This document shows, in pieces, positions 22,058-29,260 of a stretch of 64,000 nucleotides of DNA. The notes beneath the pieces were generated by a model that saw only the letters and a list, made by a program, of their open reading frames with translations, did not search any database and was not told where the DNA came from. The DNA comes from Desulfurococcales archaeon (GTDB lineage: Archaea > Thermoproteota > Thermoprotei_A > Sulfolobales > NBVN01). Numbering within the stretch: position 1 is the first letter of the stretch; every line of letters begins with the position of its first letter. Both the position numbers and the translations under genes were made by a program. Location: NCBI GenBank assembly GCA_023255955.1, contig JAGDWD010000008.1, positions 254,845 through 318,844 of the forward strand. Reading direction: 5' to 3'.

Positions 22058-22945
22058 GTGTCTGAGCGGTTGGTTAAGAAAGTAAATGTCGTGGGGAAGG
22101 GTTCTCTCTCCGTTATAATACCGAAGAGGTGGGCTGACGCGTTAGGGCTTAAGCCCGGTGATTCCGTTAGCTTACACTTCAATGGCTCGAGGGTCATCCT
22201 CTCACCGGTAGGGCTAGCTGAGCAGGGAGTTGATATGGGTATCCTGGTGGAGCTCGAAGACCACGATATAGCGCTGAGGAAGCTCATAGCTTCGTATGTT
22301 GAGGGGGTGACTAAGGTGAAGGTGAGGGGTGACTACAAGAGCGTGCTGGAGCTTTCTGAGAATCTGAGGAACTACATCACTAACTTCGTGCTGATACCTA
22401 AGCCGGACTCAGACCTCCACGATATTATGTTCTCAGATGTTAAGACGGATCTTCAGTCCCTACTCAAAATCGTTGAGTCCACGTCGAAGAAGTTCATTGA
22501 CGAGTTAGAGGAGGGTAACCCAGCTGCTCAGTCGACGTACGCGGAGTTCTATAGGGAGTACCTTTACTTCCTTAGGAGCATCAAGCTGTACGTTGCTGAT
22601 GGGGAGCTAGACCCGTACGAAGCTCTAGACCTAGTCGTCTCTATAGAGTACGTGAAGGAACTCCTAGACATCCTAGCACGTAGCACCGGTAAAATCCTCC
22701 GCACACCTGAGATCAGTACGCTACTCGAGCTTACTAGGGCAGCCATAGGTGCTCTACTAATTCAGGACGTGGAGACCGCGACGAACAGCGCTATCAAGAT
22801 AATCAACATCCTCGACGGGATTGCCTGCTCCAGCGATATCTGCGGAAGCATTAAGTATCTGACGATGAGGATGGCGGAGCAGATCCTGGGTAGGTGCATA
22901 AGGAATAAGGCATGTAGGTGTAAATACTTCTTCCCTAAGGTGTGA
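22058..22945 (+). CDS. AbrB-domain plus PhoU-like regulator
   Basis: This 295-residue protein joins an N-terminal SpoVT/AbrB swapped-hairpin DNA-binding domain (residues 5-50: GKGSLSVIIPKRWADALGLK followed by GDSVSL) to a long helical PhoU-like region (about 75-295). Archaeal proteins of this design are usually annotated as phosphate-uptake regulators. The C-terminus has cysteines in CSSDICGS and in CIRNKACRC. GTG 22058 lies 38 bases after the TATA-like TTTATTTAAAG. It precedes the hydrogenase operon by 91 bases in the same direction. A control role over that operon is possible but not shown. Confidence 0.82.
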   Translation: MSERLVKKVNVVGKGSLSVIIPKRWADALGLKPGDSVSLHFNGSRVILSPVGLAEQGVDMGILVELEDHDIALRKLIASYVEGVTKVKVRGDYKSVLELSENLRNYITNFVLIPKPDSDLHDIMFSDVKTDLQSLLKIVESTSKKFIDELEEGNPAAQSTYAEFYREYLYFLRSIKLYVADGELDPYEALDLVVSIEYVKELLDILARSTGKILRTPEISTLLELTRAAIGALLIQDVETATNSAIKIINILDGIACSSDICGSIKYLTMRMAEQILGRCIRNKACRCKYFFPKV

Positions 22946-23036: not shown

Positions 23037-23555
23037 GTGGATCCTAGGAAGCTAGTTAGGGAGCTTGTATCTAGGTACGGTCCTGACCGAGGCAGGTTAA
23101 TACAGATACTCCAGGAAGTTCAGAAGGAGTATAGGTACCTCCCGAGGGAGAGCTTGGAGGAGGTATCTAAGGAGCTCGGAGTATCCCTCCCAGAAGTACT
23201 GAACGTAGCTACATTCTACCACCAGTTCAGGCTAGAACCTGTCGGCAAGTACATCGCCTACGTCTGCTTCGGAACTGCGTGCTACCTGAAGGGCTCGGCA
23301 GACGTCTATGAGGCTATGAGGAGGGCTGCTGGGTTAAATGATGGGCGTAGCACCACCGAGGACAGGACCCTAACAATCGAGAAGGCAAGGTGCTTCGGGT
23401 GCTGCAGCCTAGCTCCAGTAGTTATGGTGGTATCCTCAGACGGTACTGAGAGGTACGTACACGGTAGACTCACACCGTCAGAGGCTAGGAGGCTGGTCTC
23501 CACGTACAGGTCGAGGGCTCTGCGGTCTGGTGGGGTTGGGGTTGCTTCAGGATAG
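23037..23555 (+). CDS. NuoE/HoxE/HydC-like [2Fe-2S] subunit of the hydrogenase complex
   Basis: This 172-residue protein is a thioredoxin-fold [2Fe-2S] electron carrier of the NuoE family. The cluster ligands C77, C82, C119 and C123 are in VCFGTACYLKG and RCFGCCSLAP, and the N-terminal helical part carries LPEVLNVATFYHQF (51-64), a family hallmark. In bidirectional and bifurcating hydrogenases this subunit docks on the NuoF-like flavoprotein. It is the first gene of a five-gene operon whose coding regions touch or overlap. GTG 23037 has GAGGGG just upstream. The role in this complex follows from gene order. Confidence 0.92.
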   Translation: MDPRKLVRELVSRYGPDRGRLIQILQEVQKEYRYLPRESLEEVSKELGVSLPEVLNVATFYHQFRLEPVGKYIAYVCFGTACYLKGSADVYEAMRRAAGLNDGRSTTEDRTLTIEKARCFGCCSLAPVVMVVSSDGTERYVHGRLTPSEARRLVSTYRSRALRSGGVGVASG

Positions 23556-25359
23556 TTTGAGGAGGTTTATCTACGGTAGTAAAGGCTTCAGGATAAGGAT
23601 CCCTATAGCTAGCTGCTCCCTAGCTGCTGGTGCGGGGGAGGTATACCAGGCCGCACTCAAGGCTGTCGATAGGTTGGGCATCGATGCGGAGGTCTACAGG
23701 GTCGGCTGTACAGGGCTCTGCTTCATGGATCCCTGGGTGGAGATAGCGAAGGAGGGCCTACCACCAGCTATCTACGCTAACGTAAAACCCGATCAGGTAG
23801 CCACGATAATAGAGAGATATGTGAGTGGGGATCTCTCCGGAGCTGTCGCGGTGAGGTTTAAGCAAGGTGGTGAGAGGATCCCGTCCCTAGATGAGCTGGA
23901 CTTCTGGAGACTTCAAGTAAGGTTCGTATCCAGGAACTGCGGGCTGGTTGACCCGGAATCTATAGAGGACTACATAGCATCCGGAGGGTATCAAGGCCTT
24001 AGAAAAGCCCTTAGCATGAGGAGGGATGAGGTTATAGAGACCATAAAGAGGTCCGGTCTTAGAGGGAGGGGAGGAGCCGGGTTCCCGACATGGTTTAAGT
24101 GGAGGGTGGCATACGAGCAGGAGAGTGATGTGAAGTACGTGATATGTAACGGGGATGAGGGGGATCCAGGAGCGTTCATGAATAGGTTGCTAGCTGAGTC
24201 AGATCCTCACAGGGTTCTGGAGGGGCTGATAATAGCTGGCTACGCTATAGGTGCTACTAAGGGCTTCATATTCGTGAGAGCTGAGAAGCCCCTCATGGCC
24301 GACAGGTTGGAGAAGGCCGTGGAAGACGCTAGGAAGGCCGGGTTCCTGGGGAAGGGGATACTGGGCACTAACTTCGACTTCGATGTGGAGGTGTACAGGA
24401 GTGCTGGAGCCTTCGTCTGCGGTGAGGAGACGGCCCTGATAGCTGCTATCGAGGGCCGCTCTAGGCCTAGGCAGAGGCCTCCCTACCCAGCTACTAGCGG
24501 TCTGTGGGGGAAGCCAACAGTAATAAACAACGTGGAGACGTTGGCCCACGTAGCTACGATATTCCAGGTAGGCGTAGAGGAGTTCACCAAGCTCGGGACG
24601 GAGAAGTCGAAGGGGACTAAGATGTTTTGTGTTACGGGCTCCGTGAATAGGACCGGGGTCTACGAGGTACCTATAGGCACTAAGATCAAGACCTTGGTAT
24701 TCGATATTGCTGGTGGCCCGCCCGAGGGGAGGAAGGTGAAAGCCGTGCAGGTGGGAGGCCCTAGTGGTGGGTGTATACCGATAGAGCTCGCAGACCTGGA
24801 GCTGGACTACGAAAGCCTTCAGAGCTACGGAGCTATAATGGGTTCCGGGGGGCTGGTCGTCATAGACGACGGTAACTGCATGGTCGACGTAGCTAAGTTC
24901 TTTACCGGGTTTACTCTAGCTGAGTCATGCGGTAAGTGCCTGCCCTGCAGGGTCGGGATGAAGGTTCTCAGCGAAATACTTGAGAAGATAACTAGCGGGC
25001 AAGGTACTCTAGAGGACCTAGACCTAGCCCAAGAACTAGGTGAGAGCATAGCTAAGACAGGTCTCTGCGCTTTAGGTGGTACGGCACCGAATCCGGTGCT
25101 CTCAACTCTGAGATACTACAAGCACGAGTACATAGAGCACGTACTCAACAAGAGATGTCCAGCTAAGGTATGCCCCAAGCTCGTTAACTACTACATAGAT
25201 CCGAACCTATGTAGAGGATGTACTCAGTGCGCGAAGGTCTGCCCAGTCGGAGCGATATCCGGGTCTCCTGGGAAGGTCCACACAGTAAACACTGAGGTCT
25301 GCGTAAAGTGTGGTCAGTGTTTCTCTATCTGCCCGTTCGGGGCAGTGAAGAAGGTGTGA
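23530..25359 (+). CDS. NuoF/HydB-like FMN- and NAD(H)-binding subunit with extra clusters
   Basis: This 609-residue subunit has the layout of bifurcating-hydrogenase HydB. An N-terminal thioredoxin-like [2Fe-2S] domain (1-95) keeps three of four usual cysteines (C29, C60, C64). The NAD(H) loop is GRGGAGFPTW (179-188) and the FMN site is CNGDEGDPGAF (206-216). The NuoF [4Fe-4S] ligands are C467, C470, C473 and C513. A C-terminal two-cluster ferredoxin uses C561/564/567/571 and C591/594/597/601. The added ferredoxin separates it from plain NuoF. It overlaps nuoE by 26 bases if GTG 23530 is used. It should exchange electrons with NAD(H), and bifurcation with ferredoxin is plausible. Confidence 0.93.
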   Translation: MGLGLLQDSLRRFIYGSKGFRIRIPIASCSLAAGAGEVYQAALKAVDRLGIDAEVYRVGCTGLCFMDPWVEIAKEGLPPAIYANVKPDQVATIIERYVSGDLSGAVAVRFKQGGERIPSLDELDFWRLQVRFVSRNCGLVDPESIEDYIASGGYQGLRKALSMRRDEVIETIKRSGLRGRGGAGFPTWFKWRVAYEQESDVKYVICNGDEGDPGAFMNRLLAESDPHRVLEGLIIAGYAIGATKGFIFVRAEKPLMADRLEKAVEDARKAGFLGKGILGTNFDFDVEVYRSAGAFVCGEETALIAAIEGRSRPRQRPPYPATSGLWGKPTVINNVETLAHVATIFQVGVEEFTKLGTEKSKGTKMFCVTGSVNRTGVYEVPIGTKIKTLVFDIAGGPPEGRKVKAVQVGGPSGGCIPIELADLELDYESLQSYGAIMGSGGLVVIDDGNCMVDVAKFFTGFTLAESCGKCLPCRVGMKVLSEILEKITSGQGTLEDLDLAQELGESIAKTGLCALGGTAPNPVLSTLRYYKHEYIEHVLNKRCPAKVCPKLVNYYIDPNLCRGCTQCAKVCPVGAISGSPGKVHTVNTEVCVKCGQCFSICPFGAVKKV

Positions 25360-25363
25360 GGCC

Positions 25364-26014
25364 ATGCGCGTAGTTAAGGTATACGTGAACGGAGTGGCTG
25401 TCGAGGTCCCTGAAGGTGCTACAGTCCTCAACGCTATTGAGAAGGCAGGCTATAGCGTCCCCCTACTCTGCTACCTAGACGGCCTATTCAATGAGGCTAC
25501 CTGCAGAGTCTGCGTTGTCTTGGTCAACGGCAGGGTCGTCCCTGCCTGCAGGTTCCCCGCCTCGGACGGTATTAAAGTAACTACAGAGAGCGATGAGTTG
25601 CTCAGGTATAGGAGGACTAACTTAGAGCTACTCCTATCGACACACCGAATTGAGTGCTGGAGCTGCTCTAGGAAGTCCGGTTGCGAGCTGTTAGCACTCT
25701 CTAAGCAGTTAGGGGTTGAGGGCATCCCGGTATGTGCTGAATGCCCACTCGCAGGTGATAGTTGCTTGGTAGCTAGGGGGGAGCCTTGCTTAGGACCTCT
25801 AACAGTAGCTGGATGCTCAGCTGAGTGTACTAGGAACGGGGCCCCGTGTACTGGCTGTAGAGGATTCATAACTAGACCCGAGGTTTGGAAGAGTGCGGCA
25901 GAGTTCTACAGAGAGCACGGAGTTGACGGGAAGAAGGTTGAGGTAGCTATGAGGTTCTTCTGGGCTTCAGTTCCCGACCACCTTAAGAAGATAGCTCTGG
26001 GTGGTGCTCCGTGA
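25364..26014 (+). CDS. HoxU/NuoG-N-like Fe-S subunit carrying a hydrogenase small-subunit tail motif
   Basis: This 216-residue protein begins with a plant-type [2Fe-2S] domain (C36, C47, C50, C62) and the His-Cys3 [4Fe-4S] motif of NuoG (H94, C98, C101, C107). Residues 124-167 then read CAECPLAGDSC and CLGPLTVAGCSAEC...PCTGCRG. This second part matches the distal-cluster end of group 3 [NiFe]-hydrogenase small subunits (MvhG and sulfhydrogenase type), which is missing from the small-subunit gene of this operon. The protein would bridge the flavin subunit and the [NiFe] unit. It overlaps the large-subunit gene by 4 bases. The first two domains are certain; the third is a motif match. Confidence 0.88.
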   Translation: MRVVKVYVNGVAVEVPEGATVLNAIEKAGYSVPLLCYLDGLFNEATCRVCVVLVNGRVVPACRFPASDGIKVTTESDELLRYRRTNLELLLSTHRIECWSCSRKSGCELLALSKQLGVEGIPVCAECPLAGDSCLVARGEPCLGPLTVAGCSAECTRNGAPCTGCRGFITRPEVWKSAAEFYREHGVDGKKVEVAMRFFWASVPDHLKKIALGGAP

Positions 26015-27282
26015 ACGGCAGGTTTAGTTGGGAGGTAGATAGGGTAGCAGGAGAGTCTAAGGTTGAGGTATTCCTAGATAACGGTACGGTTAGAGTTAGG
26101 TACGGGTCTCTATTAAGTATTAGAGGATTTGAGAAGCTGGTTCTAGGCCGGCACGTAGGCGACGTACCCGTAATAGCTGCTAGAATATGCGGTGTCTGCA
26201 GCCACCCCCACTTCTGGGCAGCTACCGTAGCTGCTGAGCAGGCAGCTGGTATTGAGGTCAGTGACGACGTGGCTAGGATTAGGGATGTCTGCAACAAGCT
26301 CGGGCTACTTCAGAACCACGTAGTCCACCTCGGATTCCTCGCGTTACCGGACTATATGAGTAGGGAAGAACTAGAGAGACTGGGTAGGGACGTCCTAGTA
26401 GTGAACAACAACATCGTCAACGCTATGAAGCTCCTGTGCGGTAGGCTTACATCACCTAATAGCTACCGTCTGGGAAGGTTCCTCTCGCGGATAGATAAAA
26501 GAACCATTACCACAGCTCTCGAATACCTTAAGGATGCTAGAAAGACCTTTGAGGAGCTCGTCGAGAGAGTGCTTAAAGTAGAGATTCCGGATCTGAAGGA
26601 TCCTTCCCCGGTCGGGCTATCCCTCTCAGGATCTCCAGCAACCACCGTTCCTAAGGCAGGGCCGTACCTCCTCGAGGTACCTGGGGGGAGGACGGAAATA
26701 CACATCAGTAACTATAAGGACGTCCTCATGGAGGTGCCTGCCGACTACTCAACAAGTAAGAAGTGTGTTTATGAAGGTAGACCATTCCATGTAGGTTCTA
26801 GGGCCAGACTCCTCAACGCGTTAAGAGATAGTAACCTAGGTAGTGAGCTCAGAAACGTCATTAGTGGCTATGAGAATGTGCTGACATGGAATCCGTTCGC
26901 TAATATTTACGCGAAGGCTTTGGAATCTAAAGTAGTCTTCGACCTCGTAATGAGGGAGCTAAGCGAGTTAAATAGGGAGCTCAAGCTAGAACCCGCGTAC
27001 AGCGGTAGGAACTTCAATGCTGGGATAGGTGTTGTAGAGGCTCCTAGGGGACTACTCGTACACTACTACGAGGTAGATAGAGAGCTCAGAGTAGTTAAAG
27101 CGGATATAGTGACCCCCACAGTAATGAACACGCCCCACATCGAGGCATCGGCTACAGCACTGGTCGGGGATCTACTGTCGAGTAAGGCTGATGAAGGCTT
27201 GGTGAAGAAGTTGGTTGAGGCGTTAGTGAGGGCGTATGATCCGTGTATTCCATGTGCTGTACATGTGGTAAGGGCTAGGTGA
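26011..27282 (+). CDS. [NiFe]-hydrogenase large (catalytic) subunit, group 3-like
   Basis: This 423-residue subunit holds the Ni-Fe active site. The L1 motif RICGVCSHPH supplies C60 and C63 with H67, and the L2 motif DPCIPCAVH near the C-terminus supplies C412 and C415, so all four metal-binding cysteines are present. The final HVVRAR after the L2 histidine is the short tail normally removed or lacking in mature proteins. The length and the DPCxxCxxH ending fit soluble group 3 (NAD- or F420-linked) enzymes. It overlaps both neighbours by 4 bases, which implies tight co-translation. No hyp maturation genes are in the window. Catalytic competence is inferred from the residues. Confidence 0.94.
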   Translation: MNGRFSWEVDRVAGESKVEVFLDNGTVRVRYGSLLSIRGFEKLVLGRHVGDVPVIAARICGVCSHPHFWAATVAAEQAAGIEVSDDVARIRDVCNKLGLLQNHVVHLGFLALPDYMSREELERLGRDVLVVNNNIVNAMKLLCGRLTSPNSYRLGRFLSRIDKRTITTALEYLKDARKTFEELVERVLKVEIPDLKDPSPVGLSLSGSPATTVPKAGPYLLEVPGGRTEIHISNYKDVLMEVPADYSTSKKCVYEGRPFHVGSRARLLNALRDSNLGSELRNVISGYENVLTWNPFANIYAKALESKVVFDLVMRELSELNRELKLEPAYSGRNFNAGIGVVEAPRGLLVHYYEVDRELRVVKADIVTPTVMNTPHIEASATALVGDLLSSKADEGLVKKLVEALVRAYDPCIPCAVHVVRAR

Positions 27283-28598
27283 TCTCAATGGGCTTCAAAC
27301 TATCCGTAATTGCTCTCTCGGGTTGTGACGGCTGTCAGTACAACCTCGTTACTAGGGAGTTCTTCGAGTTCTTGAAGCAGAAGGGGATTGAGATATCCTA
27401 CTGGCCACTCATTGGAGCTGGAGACAGCTTCGAGGCTTCGGATATAACTTTAGTGGAAGGATCCGTAATTAGCGATAGGGATGTTGAGGTCTTAAGGAAG
27501 GCTAGGGAAGGCTCGAAGTACGTAGTTGCTATGGGGGCGTGCGCCCTGCTAGGAGGGATTCAAGGAGGTCTAGGACAGTCGAAGCCTATAAGTAGTTACA
27601 TCAATGTTGATTACTATGTAAGAGGCTGCCCAGTAACTCCTTCAGAGGTCATGTACCTACTAGATAACATAGTGTCGAAACGCGGATGGAGACTCGGGGA
27701 GAGGAGATTCGGGTATATTGAGAGGGGTACGCACACCATTGAAGACGGTTCTCTAGTGTTAGACCAAGGTAAGTGCGTCGTGTGCGGGAGATGTATTGAT
27801 GTGTGTGCTCGGATAGGAGCTAAGGTACTTAACTATACCCACAGAGGGATAGATACCCTCATATCGACCCCCTACCGCGACCCGTTCGGGAAATCAGGCT
27901 GTGTTTACTGCGGTCTCTGCGCAGCATACTGCCCTGTAGGTGCTATATGGTATAAATCCGACGTTGAGAGGATACTTTCCGAGGTCTCTAAGGGGAACAT
28001 ATCTGAGGTACTAGTAGAGCCTGAGGCCTTAGCGGCTCTAGCAGAATCTGAAAACCTGACACCACACCAGGTCGTTGAGGGGTTGAGGATCCTAGGTTTT
28101 AGAAGAATCATCGTGTACGACCCTCTAAGCCAGGTTGACAGTAACTTAAAGAACACTATCATACTGAGATCACCAGCAGAGAGGGAACTACTTAGGAGAA
28201 TCCCCATCAACCCAAATGTGAATATAGTAGACATAGACCTGAGAATCACGCCAGGTGTTGTCTACCTAACGCAGTGCTTCTCCTGGAAGTCTAAGCTCTC
28301 GAGAGCCATAACATCTAGAGAACTCCAGCTAGCTCTTAGAAGACTGAACTATGCTACTTTAAGAGGGGATCTACCGGACGAGGTGTTCGTCTCGAAGAAT
28401 AGTGTACGTAGAGTAAACTCCTTAGAGGAGCTAAGAAGGATCTCCGAGGAGAGAGTGAGAGAAACCATAGTATTTGAGTTATGTCCTGGAGGCTGTCTTC
28501 TAGGGGGAGGACAACCAATCAGTAACGGGAAGAAGCTTAGTAAGGTCCTAGAAGATAGGTGGAGCAGGCTCCGGGAGTTTTTCACTAATCTAGCTTGA
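27279..28598 (+). CDS. hybrid subunit: [NiFe]-hydrogenase small N-domain + ferredoxin + [FeFe]-hydrogenase-like domain
   Basis: This 439-residue protein has three parts. Residues 1-130 are the proximal-cluster domain of a [NiFe]-hydrogenase small subunit (C16, C19, C88, C117; SGCDGCQ, MGAC, RGCP, plus the LVEG strand). Residues 160-225 hold two [4Fe-4S] motifs (C166/169/172/176 and C208/211/214/218). Residues 240-439 resemble a shortened [FeFe]-hydrogenase H-domain: VLVEPEALAALAE and LRILGFRRIIVYD, an L2-like TQCFSWKSKL (C333) with ITSRELQLAL, and an L3 motif ELCPGGCLLGGGQP (C402, C406). The L1 cysteine is absent, so a normal H-cluster is unlikely. It is the last gene of the operon. The start is GTG 27279 or ATG 27288. 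Confidence 0.9.
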   Translation: MISMGFKLSVIALSGCDGCQYNLVTREFFEFLKQKGIEISYWPLIGAGDSFEASDITLVEGSVISDRDVEVLRKAREGSKYVVAMGACALLGGIQGGLGQSKPISSYINVDYYVRGCPVTPSEVMYLLDNIVSKRGWRLGERRFGYIERGTHTIEDGSLVLDQGKCVVCGRCIDVCARIGAKVLNYTHRGIDTLISTPYRDPFGKSGCVYCGLCAAYCPVGAIWYKSDVERILSEVSKGNISEVLVEPEALAALAESENLTPHQVVEGLRILGFRRIIVYDPLSQVDSNLKNTIILRSPAERELLRRIPINPNVNIVDIDLRITPGVVYLTQCFSWKSKLSRAITSRELQLALRRLNYATLRGDLPDEVFVSKNSVRRVNSLEELRRISEERVRETIVFELCPGGCLLGGGQPISNGKKLSKVLEDRWSRLREFFTNLA

Positions 28599-28630: not shown

Positions 28631-29260
28631 CTAGAGCCTGGACCTGAAGTATCCTGAAACGTAGATAGCGGCTGCCGGGTTATGCCCGGTTACTCGGTCC
28701 TTAGCTATTAGGTAAGTTACCGGGGCCTTCGAGTACTCTATGAAGAGGGTGTCGTGCCCCACACAAAGACCTACAACCACGTTGAGCTCCGTACCTACGT
28801 GGTTCAGTAGCTCTGCCTGGACTATGGGGTTGCACATAGGCTCGAAGTTCCCAGGCCGTAACTTCTGATCCTCACTCAGACCTACCTGAGTTTTATCTAC
28901 AGCACCACACTTACAGCAGACAGAGTAGACCTCGAAATTCTTGCTCTCCAGGTACTTAGCTACCTGCTCGGCCTCAAAGCTTAGACCAACACAGAACGCT
29001 ATCCCTATCTTCTTTATGTTCAACTTCCTAGCGAACTCCACCACCTCCCTGAGCCTAGGCCACATGCAGTAACCCTCAACCTCAACTAGTGAGGCTGCTT
29101 TATGGATCTCCTTAACGAACCCCGCGTACTTCTCGAAAGCACTCCGCACTACCTCCGGATATGTAACCATCGGGCAGTTATTAGGTAGGGGAGAGCCCTC
29201 CCCCTTAGAACAGGACTTCACCCTGCAGTAAGCACAACTAGGAGACCTTAACCCCACCAA
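28631..29260 (-). CDS. DUF1847-family cysteine-rich metal-binding protein
   Basis: This 209-residue protein matches the DUF1847 family of anaerobes, annotated as metal-binding. An N-terminal cluster CAYCRVKSC and NNCPM is followed by a Rossmann-like unit (IGIAFCVGLSFEAEQVAKYL), then SVCCKCGAVDK, then a second alpha/beta half with VVVGLCVGHDTLFI and TYLIAKDRVTGHNP. The many cysteines suggest Fe-S or zinc binding. It is read towards the hydrogenase operon (convergent, 32 bases apart), so it is not cotranscribed with it. Function unknown. Confidence 0.85.
   Translation of the reverse strand: MVGLRSPSCAYCRVKSCSKGEGSPLPNNCPMVTYPEVVRSAFEKYAGFVKEIHKAASLVEVEGYCMWPRLREVVEFARKLNIKKIGIAFCVGLSFEAEQVAKYLESKNFEVYSVCCKCGAVDKTQVGLSEDQKLRPGNFEPMCNPIVQAELLNHVGTELNVVVGLCVGHDTLFIEYSKAPVTYLIAKDRVTGHNPAAAIYVSGYFRSRL

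Follow-up and report, generated by a model that had tools for sequence, protein, structure and literature searches.

Reciprocally swapped C-terminal halves of HydA and a HydD-type small subunit in a [NiFe]-hydrogenase operon of heat-loving archaea

How does a HoxU-like protein come to carry the cysteine-rich tail of a hydrogenase small subunit? The question is raised by a tight plus-strand operon at positions 23037-28598 of the window, the 64,000-nucleotide stretch of archaeal DNA analysed here, in which five genes starting at 23037, 23530, 25364, 26011 and 27279 follow in that order (Table 1). According to the original prediction, a distal-cluster motif had moved from the small subunit encoded at 27279 into the HoxU-like protein encoded at 25364, leaving a small subunit split in two, with its halves fused to different partners. 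The profiles described below indicate a larger rearrangement, in which both proteins are products of an exchange between two hydrogenase subunits.

Table 1. Features of the operon, with positions in the window.
Feature	Position	Strand	Basis
HydC/NuoE/HoxE-like subunit, [2Fe-2S] thioredoxin fold	23037..23555	+	PF01257, E 8.5e-41
HydB/NuoF-like FMN subunit	23530..25359	+	PF01512, PF10589, Fer4; alignment
25364 protein residues 1-122, HydA N-terminal part (A1)	25364..25729	+	profile 1-121 = 8a6t_A 1-121
25364 protein residues 123-216, C-terminal HydD-type small subunit part (D2)	25730..26014	+	profile = 9nez_A 162-254
[NiFe]-hydrogenase large subunit	26011..27282	+	PF00374, E 3.9e-31; NCBIfam ShyA, E 6.1e-49
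27279 protein residues 1-142, N-terminal HydD-type part (D1)	27279..27704	+	PF01058, E 2.4e-21
27279 protein residues 143-439, HydA from ~123 on (A2)	27705..28598	+	profile 163-387 = 8a6t_A 123-400
H-cluster motif L1 remnant, residues 297-301 RSPAE, Ser298 for Cys	28167..28181	+	full-HydA alignment
Cys333, retained motif L2 Cys	28275..28277	+	
Motif L3 CPGGCLLGGGQP, C402 and C406 retained	28482..28517	+	

The 25364 gene (25364-26014, plus strand, ATG start) encodes 216 residues that fall into two parts. Residues 2-120 are matched by the Fer2_4 and NADH-G_4Fe-4S_3 families and by the HydA1 chain 7q4v_A (E 7.1e-24), and carry a [2Fe-2S] site formed by Cys36, Cys47, Cys50 and Cys62, followed by a His-Cys3 [4Fe-4S] site formed by His94, Cys98, Cys101 and Cys107. 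Residues 121-204 match the NCBIfam model HydD (NF040836, E 2.9e-18, profile positions 164-249 of 261), and the isolated 96-residue tail finds the delta subunit of P. furiosus sulfhydrogenase (9nez_A, chain residues 162-242, E 1.5e-16), with weaker matches to small subunits of the MvhG/VhuG type. The resemblance of the tail to HydD is, in sequence terms, far beyond chance. The motif singled out in the original prediction, CLGPLTVAGCSAECTRNGAPCTGCRG (residues 142-167), does lie in this tail, behind the [2Fe-2S] and His-Cys3 sites as described there. Every one of the 16 ligand residues of the family, the eight tail cysteines included, is retained in 31 of 31 copies. Its reading as a distal-cluster motif needs widening. 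It does belong to a small-subunit tail, but the eight cysteines (Cys124, Cys127, Cys134, Cys142, Cys151, Cys155, Cys162 and Cys165) fit two [4Fe-4S] clusters, which we take to be those called medial and distal, rather than the distal one alone.

The structure model of the 25364 protein matches HydA1 (8a6t) with Z 15.1 and rmsd 2.4 over 127 aligned residues. It is confident mainly in residues 1-120, with a tail of low confidence, and the PDB matches listed for it fall mainly within residues 1-150. Because confidence and matches alike lie mainly outside the tail, the assignment of the latter rests on sequence.

The 27279 protein, of 439 residues, opens as a HydD/ShyD small subunit and continues as an [FeFe]-type HydA with two ferredoxin clusters and an H-domain. 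Its HydD match is restricted to the N-terminal part (9nez_A 5-149) and it consequently lacks the HydD tail, in line with what had been predicted for the small subunit of this operon. The last 300 residues supply the missing part of HydA, matching 8a6t_A 123-266 and carrying the CPGGC..GGGQP motif. The proximal-cluster ligands, Cys16, Cys19, Cys88 and Cys117, are each present in 32 or 33 of 33 copies of the family; one copy (L040) has Asp at position 88, and the gaps at Cys16 and Cys19 in L037 stem from the automatic choice of ORF start, the CxxC being present in the DNA. In that locus (L037:1766-1820) no ATG, GTG or TTG is seen 5' of the CxxC, and CTG may be the start. The eight ferredoxin cysteines are found in all 33 copies. 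An origin of the front and ferredoxin portions from FrhG was considered and rejected: FrhG matches residues 7-178 (E 4.2e-15), but HydD matches better, the profile of the front scoring 136 bits with 9nez_A against 95 bits with FrhG-type proteins, and the ferredoxin part is HydA-like (162 bits with 8a6t_A by profile).

The joints of the two proteins are complementary. By profile comparison, residues 1-121 of HydA1 (8a6t) correspond to positions 1-121 of the 25364 family and residues 123-400 to positions 163-387 of the 27279 family; residues 1-157 of HydD (9nez) correspond to positions 1-158 of the 27279 family and residues 162-254 to positions 123-216 of the 25364 family, the latter alignment bearing out the predicted kinship with HydD small subunits. 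When HydA and HydD are rebuilt from these pieces, 1 and 4 residues of the chain numbering are missing, respectively, and both joints are reproduced when full-length proteins from the loci, 79 HydA and 6 HydD, are searched with HMMs. In the window HydA is not seen as one chain, its residues 1-121 and 123-400 being found in different proteins, and neither is HydD, whose proximal-cluster cysteines and eight tail cysteines are all present, spread over two proteins. As read from the profiles, the 25364 and 27279 proteins between them account for the domains of a single HydA and a single HydD, and the 25364 protein is half of a reciprocal HydA/HydD exchange of C-terminal halves. The small subunit is indeed split and its pieces fused to other proteins, but those partners are themselves the two halves of one HydA, and for this reason the exchange is reciprocal; the one-way move of the tail into the HoxU-like subunit that had been envisaged gives way to it, the remainder of the 27279 protein being HydA from ~123 onward. 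A HoxU-type ferredoxin domain is not found behind the His-Cys3 site, where residues 123-216 match HydD.

For the 27279 protein, a model with mean pLDDT 81 and pTM 0.75 superimposes on CpI (Z 21.3, rmsd 4.1, 299 residues aligned), on the HydD chains 9e1j (Z 19.4, rmsd 5.9, 185 aligned) and 9nez_A (Z 18.6, rmsd 4.9, 192 aligned), and on HydS of HydABCSL (Z 18.4, rmsd 2.4, 142 aligned). The alignment with the HydD chains runs up to residue ~222, so that the ferredoxin domain and the HydD tail would overlap in position. This single-chain model speaks mildly against a simple rebuilding of one small subunit from the two pieces; its weight is limited because it was made without partners and is of moderate confidence in that region.

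The large subunit retains both motifs of the [NiFe] site, RICGVCSHPH and DPCIPCAVH, each of which is seen in 28 of 29 copies; the misses are due to a contig end in L169 and to a listed frame that starts late in L175. Past the His of DPCxPCxVH the window protein has a cleavable C-terminal extension, unlike the large subunits of eight other loci (L025, L026, L028, L031, L032, L033, L036 and L180), which end at this residue.

The [FeFe] domain of the 27279 family, by comparison with full HydA proteins, which read TSC(C/S)P at motif L1 in the alignment, has Ser at the L1 Cys position in 32 of 33 copies and Cys in one (L040). Motifs L2 and L3 keep their one and two Cys, respectively, in 33 of 33. 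Among the bacterial HydA proteins of L045-L120, about half have TSCSPGW instead of TSCCPxW in motif L1. We refer to genomes with the exchanged arrangement as swapped. A search of 19 of them for the maturase HydG gave no match, although G400 and T. maritima reach the cut-off, and HydF gave sub-threshold matches only, over the cut-off in 0 of 19; the window genome is 97% complete. HydG was not found in G016, G351, G023, G047, G194 and G043 either. Given the loss of the L1 Cys and the failure to find HydG, the [FeFe] domain is probably non-catalytic. Most likely it is a cluster-bearing or structural remnant, by analogy with HydABCSL, where the H-cluster site is described as replaced by a cluster at a dead end (PMC8880783).

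The HydB-like protein encoded at 23530 has the FMN domain, the B1 cluster, an NADH_4Fe-4S domain and a C-terminal ferredoxin domain for two [4Fe-4S] clusters (Pfam and alignment). Its B2-type ligands, Cys450, His537, Cys543 and Cys548, were assigned by alignment with the help of the description of these ligands in PMC8880783. Judged by family membership, the B1 site, the B2-type ligands, the ferredoxin tail and the HydC-like partner probably point to a bifurcating FMN core. The B2-type ligands alone do not show bifurcation, since the Hox-type relatives (L191-L196), which are without the HydB-type ferredoxin tail, retain them too. Two divergent copies, L040 (G063) and L180 (G510), have a HydB-like subunit without the C-terminal ferredoxin domain of the window copy. 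The operon is flanked just 5' by a gene for a protein with a MazE/AbrB-type DNA-binding domain (22058-22945, plus strand), a possible regulator, and is convergent with a gene for a Cys-rich DUF1847 protein (E 6.8e-62; 28631-29260, minus strand).

With a probability of roughly 0.7, we regard the operon as encoding a cytoplasmic electron-bifurcating [NiFe]-hydrogenase of the HydABC-SL type, whose HydA and HydD-type small subunit each bear the C-terminal half of the other. In such an enzyme the large subunit would handle H2 at its [NiFe] site, and electrons would pass to the proximal cluster in the front of the 27279 protein. Their next stations would be the pair of clusters in the 25364 tail, the pair in the ferredoxin domain of the 27279 protein, or both. 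The 25364 protein would then take them up with its His-Cys3 and [2Fe-2S] sites and hand them to the FMN of the HydB-like subunit, which would divide them over NAD(P)+ and ferredoxin as acceptors, or else the whole flow would run in the reverse direction. The old H-domain would be a non-catalytic remnant, holding at most a three-Cys cluster.

Two variants of this scheme have to be weighed against it. The HydD tail may not be docked on the HydD front at all; the proximal cluster would then be contacted directly by the ferredoxin domain of HydA, the arrangement of HydABCSL, with the tail forming an extra branch, for example a ferredoxin port. We put this only just short of even odds: the overlap of the ferredoxin domain with the HydD tail region in the 27279 model (Z 18.6-19.4 to HydD chains) favours it, as does the account of HydABCSL in which HydA is wedged between HydSL and HydB (PMC8880783), but ligand sites are retained in both HydD pieces and the unswapped operons described below have a full HydD next to a full HydA. 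Turnover of H2 at two sites, [NiFe] and [FeFe], is very improbable. The invariant L2 and L3 cysteines (33 of 33 copies) and the retained H-domain fold (Z 21.3 to CpI) would be in keeping with it, but they are outweighed by the Ser at L1 in 32 of 33 copies and by the maturase searches, in which neither HydG nor HydF passes the cut-off in any of the 19 swapped genomes.

The proposed bifurcating [NiFe] enzyme can be compared with several known systems. As portrayed in PMC8880783, NiFe-HydABCSL (NiFe-Bfu) of Acetomicrobium mobile has in common with it HydB- and HydC-like subunits, a HydA-like relay without a working H-cluster, and [NiFe] small and large subunits; its HydA and HydS, unswapped, are two chains in their own right and the proximal cluster is the only one in HydS, whereas each window chain combines half of HydA with half of a small subunit, and two extra clusters are expected from the HydD tail. 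In what Schut et al. (2022; PMC9304861) say on the subject, archaeal NiFe-Bfu enzymes are mentioned for Halorhabdus, and no FeFe-HydA(BC) hydrogenase is said to have been found in Archaea as yet. Every sequence part and cluster site of HydD from P. furiosus sulfhydrogenase I (group 3; 9nez, 9e15, 9e1j) is present in the window, but there it is divided between two genes, each piece being fused to HydA. All domains of HydA from electron-bifurcating [FeFe]-hydrogenases (8a6t, 7q4v, 7p5h) are likewise present in the same sequence, but with a split at ~122, without the first H-cluster Cys and in genomes in which HydG was not found. The Hox-type NAD-reducing hydrogenase (HoxU/HoxY, 5xf9; L191-L196) shares the HoxU-like front and the HoxY-like front of the small subunit, but HoxU has a ferredoxin domain of its own and no HydD tail, and its HoxF-like partner is without the ferredoxin tail.

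Complexes arising from fusion of [FeFe] and [NiFe] hydrogenases have reportedly been described in several archaeal orders by Greening et al. (2024, in Cell). The window system is probably one of these hybrids, or of a neighbouring kind. No description of the present joints was found in the literature searched; they may have been published with the hybrids just mentioned, and the novelty of the system is limited by published archaeal hybrid hydrogenases.

The swapped arrangement is seen well beyond the window genome. At E 1e-25 or better the 27279 type is found in 19 of 398 genomes of the phylum, the window genome included, and the full 25364 type in 20, namely the same 19 and G351, whose contig ends within the large-subunit gene. 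The 25364 protein finds some match in 96 of the 398; leaving aside the 20 and G016, where the match is partial, every match listed is confined to one of the two parts, either the HydA front or the HydD tail. Within the order the 27279 type occurs in 22 of 197 genomes, 16 of them new, bringing the total to 35 swapped genomes, which represent several families of the phylum and have open frames; loci from 33 of the 35, all but G518 and G438, were examined. Both chimeras are present in 30 loci. In 28 of these they stand one gene-length apart, with the large-subunit gene in the gap, and in L034 and L037 no gene intervenes. A contig scan dominated by bacterial HydA returned 4 swapped loci of 80 (G377, G327, G236 and G280), all already known here; the class of G063 has 1 swapped genome of 12, which is G063 itself, and the phylum of G398 gave 0 of 29 in a search run without a positive control. 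The number of separate genomes refutes the notion that the chimeras are an assembly or frameshift artefact: the same joints recur in 35 genomes with open frames, no support for an artefact was found, and its likelihood is next to nil.

Distances of the four pieces across 30 genomes correlate at 0.80-0.91, above all 500 permutations, as expected if the pieces are inherited together. In the swapped operons examined, no full small subunit is encoded among the operon's own genes, which agrees with the predicted split; the HydD-large pairs found nearby have a large subunit of their own. An ordinary pair of this sort, complete or in part, is found near the swapped operon in L024, L027, L035, L037, L038, L039, L171 and L179; in the window genome such a pair (L187) is on a separate contig. 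In two loci, L034 (G024) and L037 (G056), the chimeras are both present but their genes are not separated by one for a large subunit, and elsewhere in these two genomes only distant large subunits were found. In G016 (L170), which shares a genus code with G024, the operon is broken up and the 27279 gene contains stops. The lack of the large subunit in G024 and G056, together with decay in a relative of the former, suggests that without this subunit the complex is no longer useful.

The same parts are found unswapped in three genomes of the phylum. L190 (G194) has genes for HydC, HydB, a full HydA (549 residues), a full HydD (238 residues) and the large subunit, in sequence, and in L189 (G023) and L188 (G047) a full HydA, a full HydD and the large subunit adjoin. 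These loci came from the set taken for HydA-front matches. Full-length matches to the unswapped HydA type are seen in only 3 of 398 genomes, and five others match its front ~200 positions. The HydA proteins of L188-L190 have one L1 Cys (SPACP, SAECP), one L2 Cys and two L3 Cys, four in all of the cubane type, with the neighbouring L1 Cys absent.

In phylogenetic trees the swapped copies form one clade, whether built from the HydA parts (99, 30 rows), the HydD parts (93, 30 rows) or the large subunit (96, 29 rows). Duplicates L041-L044 were omitted from the trees and conservation counts, L199 from the HydA tree and L037_6783 from the second large-subunit tree, and bacterial HydA was thinned to a chosen subset. 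The unswapped set forms a clade of its own in all three trees (99), which is not sister to the swapped clade. The sister placement predicted by a single-exchange model is thus not seen in any of the three; sisterhood of the two sets is not rejected by AU tests (p 0.472 for HydA, 0.329 for HydD and 0.115 for the large subunit). The deepest branch of the swapped clade is L040, in which CC is retained at the L1 position, and this suggests that the L1 Cys was lost only after the swap.

One reciprocal exchange is the likely origin of both chimeras, given that three genomes have the unswapped order HydA-HydD-large subunit. Starting from an A1A2-D1D2-L operon (parts as in Table 1, L being the large subunit), one crossover between the HydA linker at ~122 and the HydD linker at ~160 would give A1D2-L and an excised D1A2 piece, and with them both chimeras at once; re-entry of this piece behind the large-subunit gene would produce the window order A1D2-L-D1A2. 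Two separate fusion or fission events at domain borders are an unlikely substitute for this exchange. Joints at natural inter-domain linkers would suit them, as would the position of the unswapped operon outside the sister place in the trees, but they have to contend with a HydA and a HydD that can be rebuilt with so few residues missing (1 and 4), with a single clade in three trees, and with the absence, among 398 genomes, of any with one chimera only, apart from G351 (contig end) and G016 (decayed operon). A fuller account of the single exchange is tentative, and we would give it somewhat worse than even odds: the crossover would have re-wired the linkers of a HydA and a HydD already held in one complex, leaving the three-dimensional arrangement unchanged, and the inherited swapped pair would have outlasted the divergence of the phylum while the un-rewired operon persists elsewhere in it.

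The hosts are a group of heat-loving archaea, in which two independent hydrogenase families are joined within single polypeptides and a before-and-after pair of operons is seen in one phylum. The order of events, that is, the joining of an [FeFe] HydA with a [NiFe] pair, the swap of halves and the loss of H-cluster ligands, is thereby testable. Read from annotations, the genes would pass for those of a HoxU-like protein plus a small subunit, or of an [FeFe] hydrogenase, and the split would be overlooked. The unusual order of clusters in the relay would be useful for understanding how bifurcating enzymes steer electrons.
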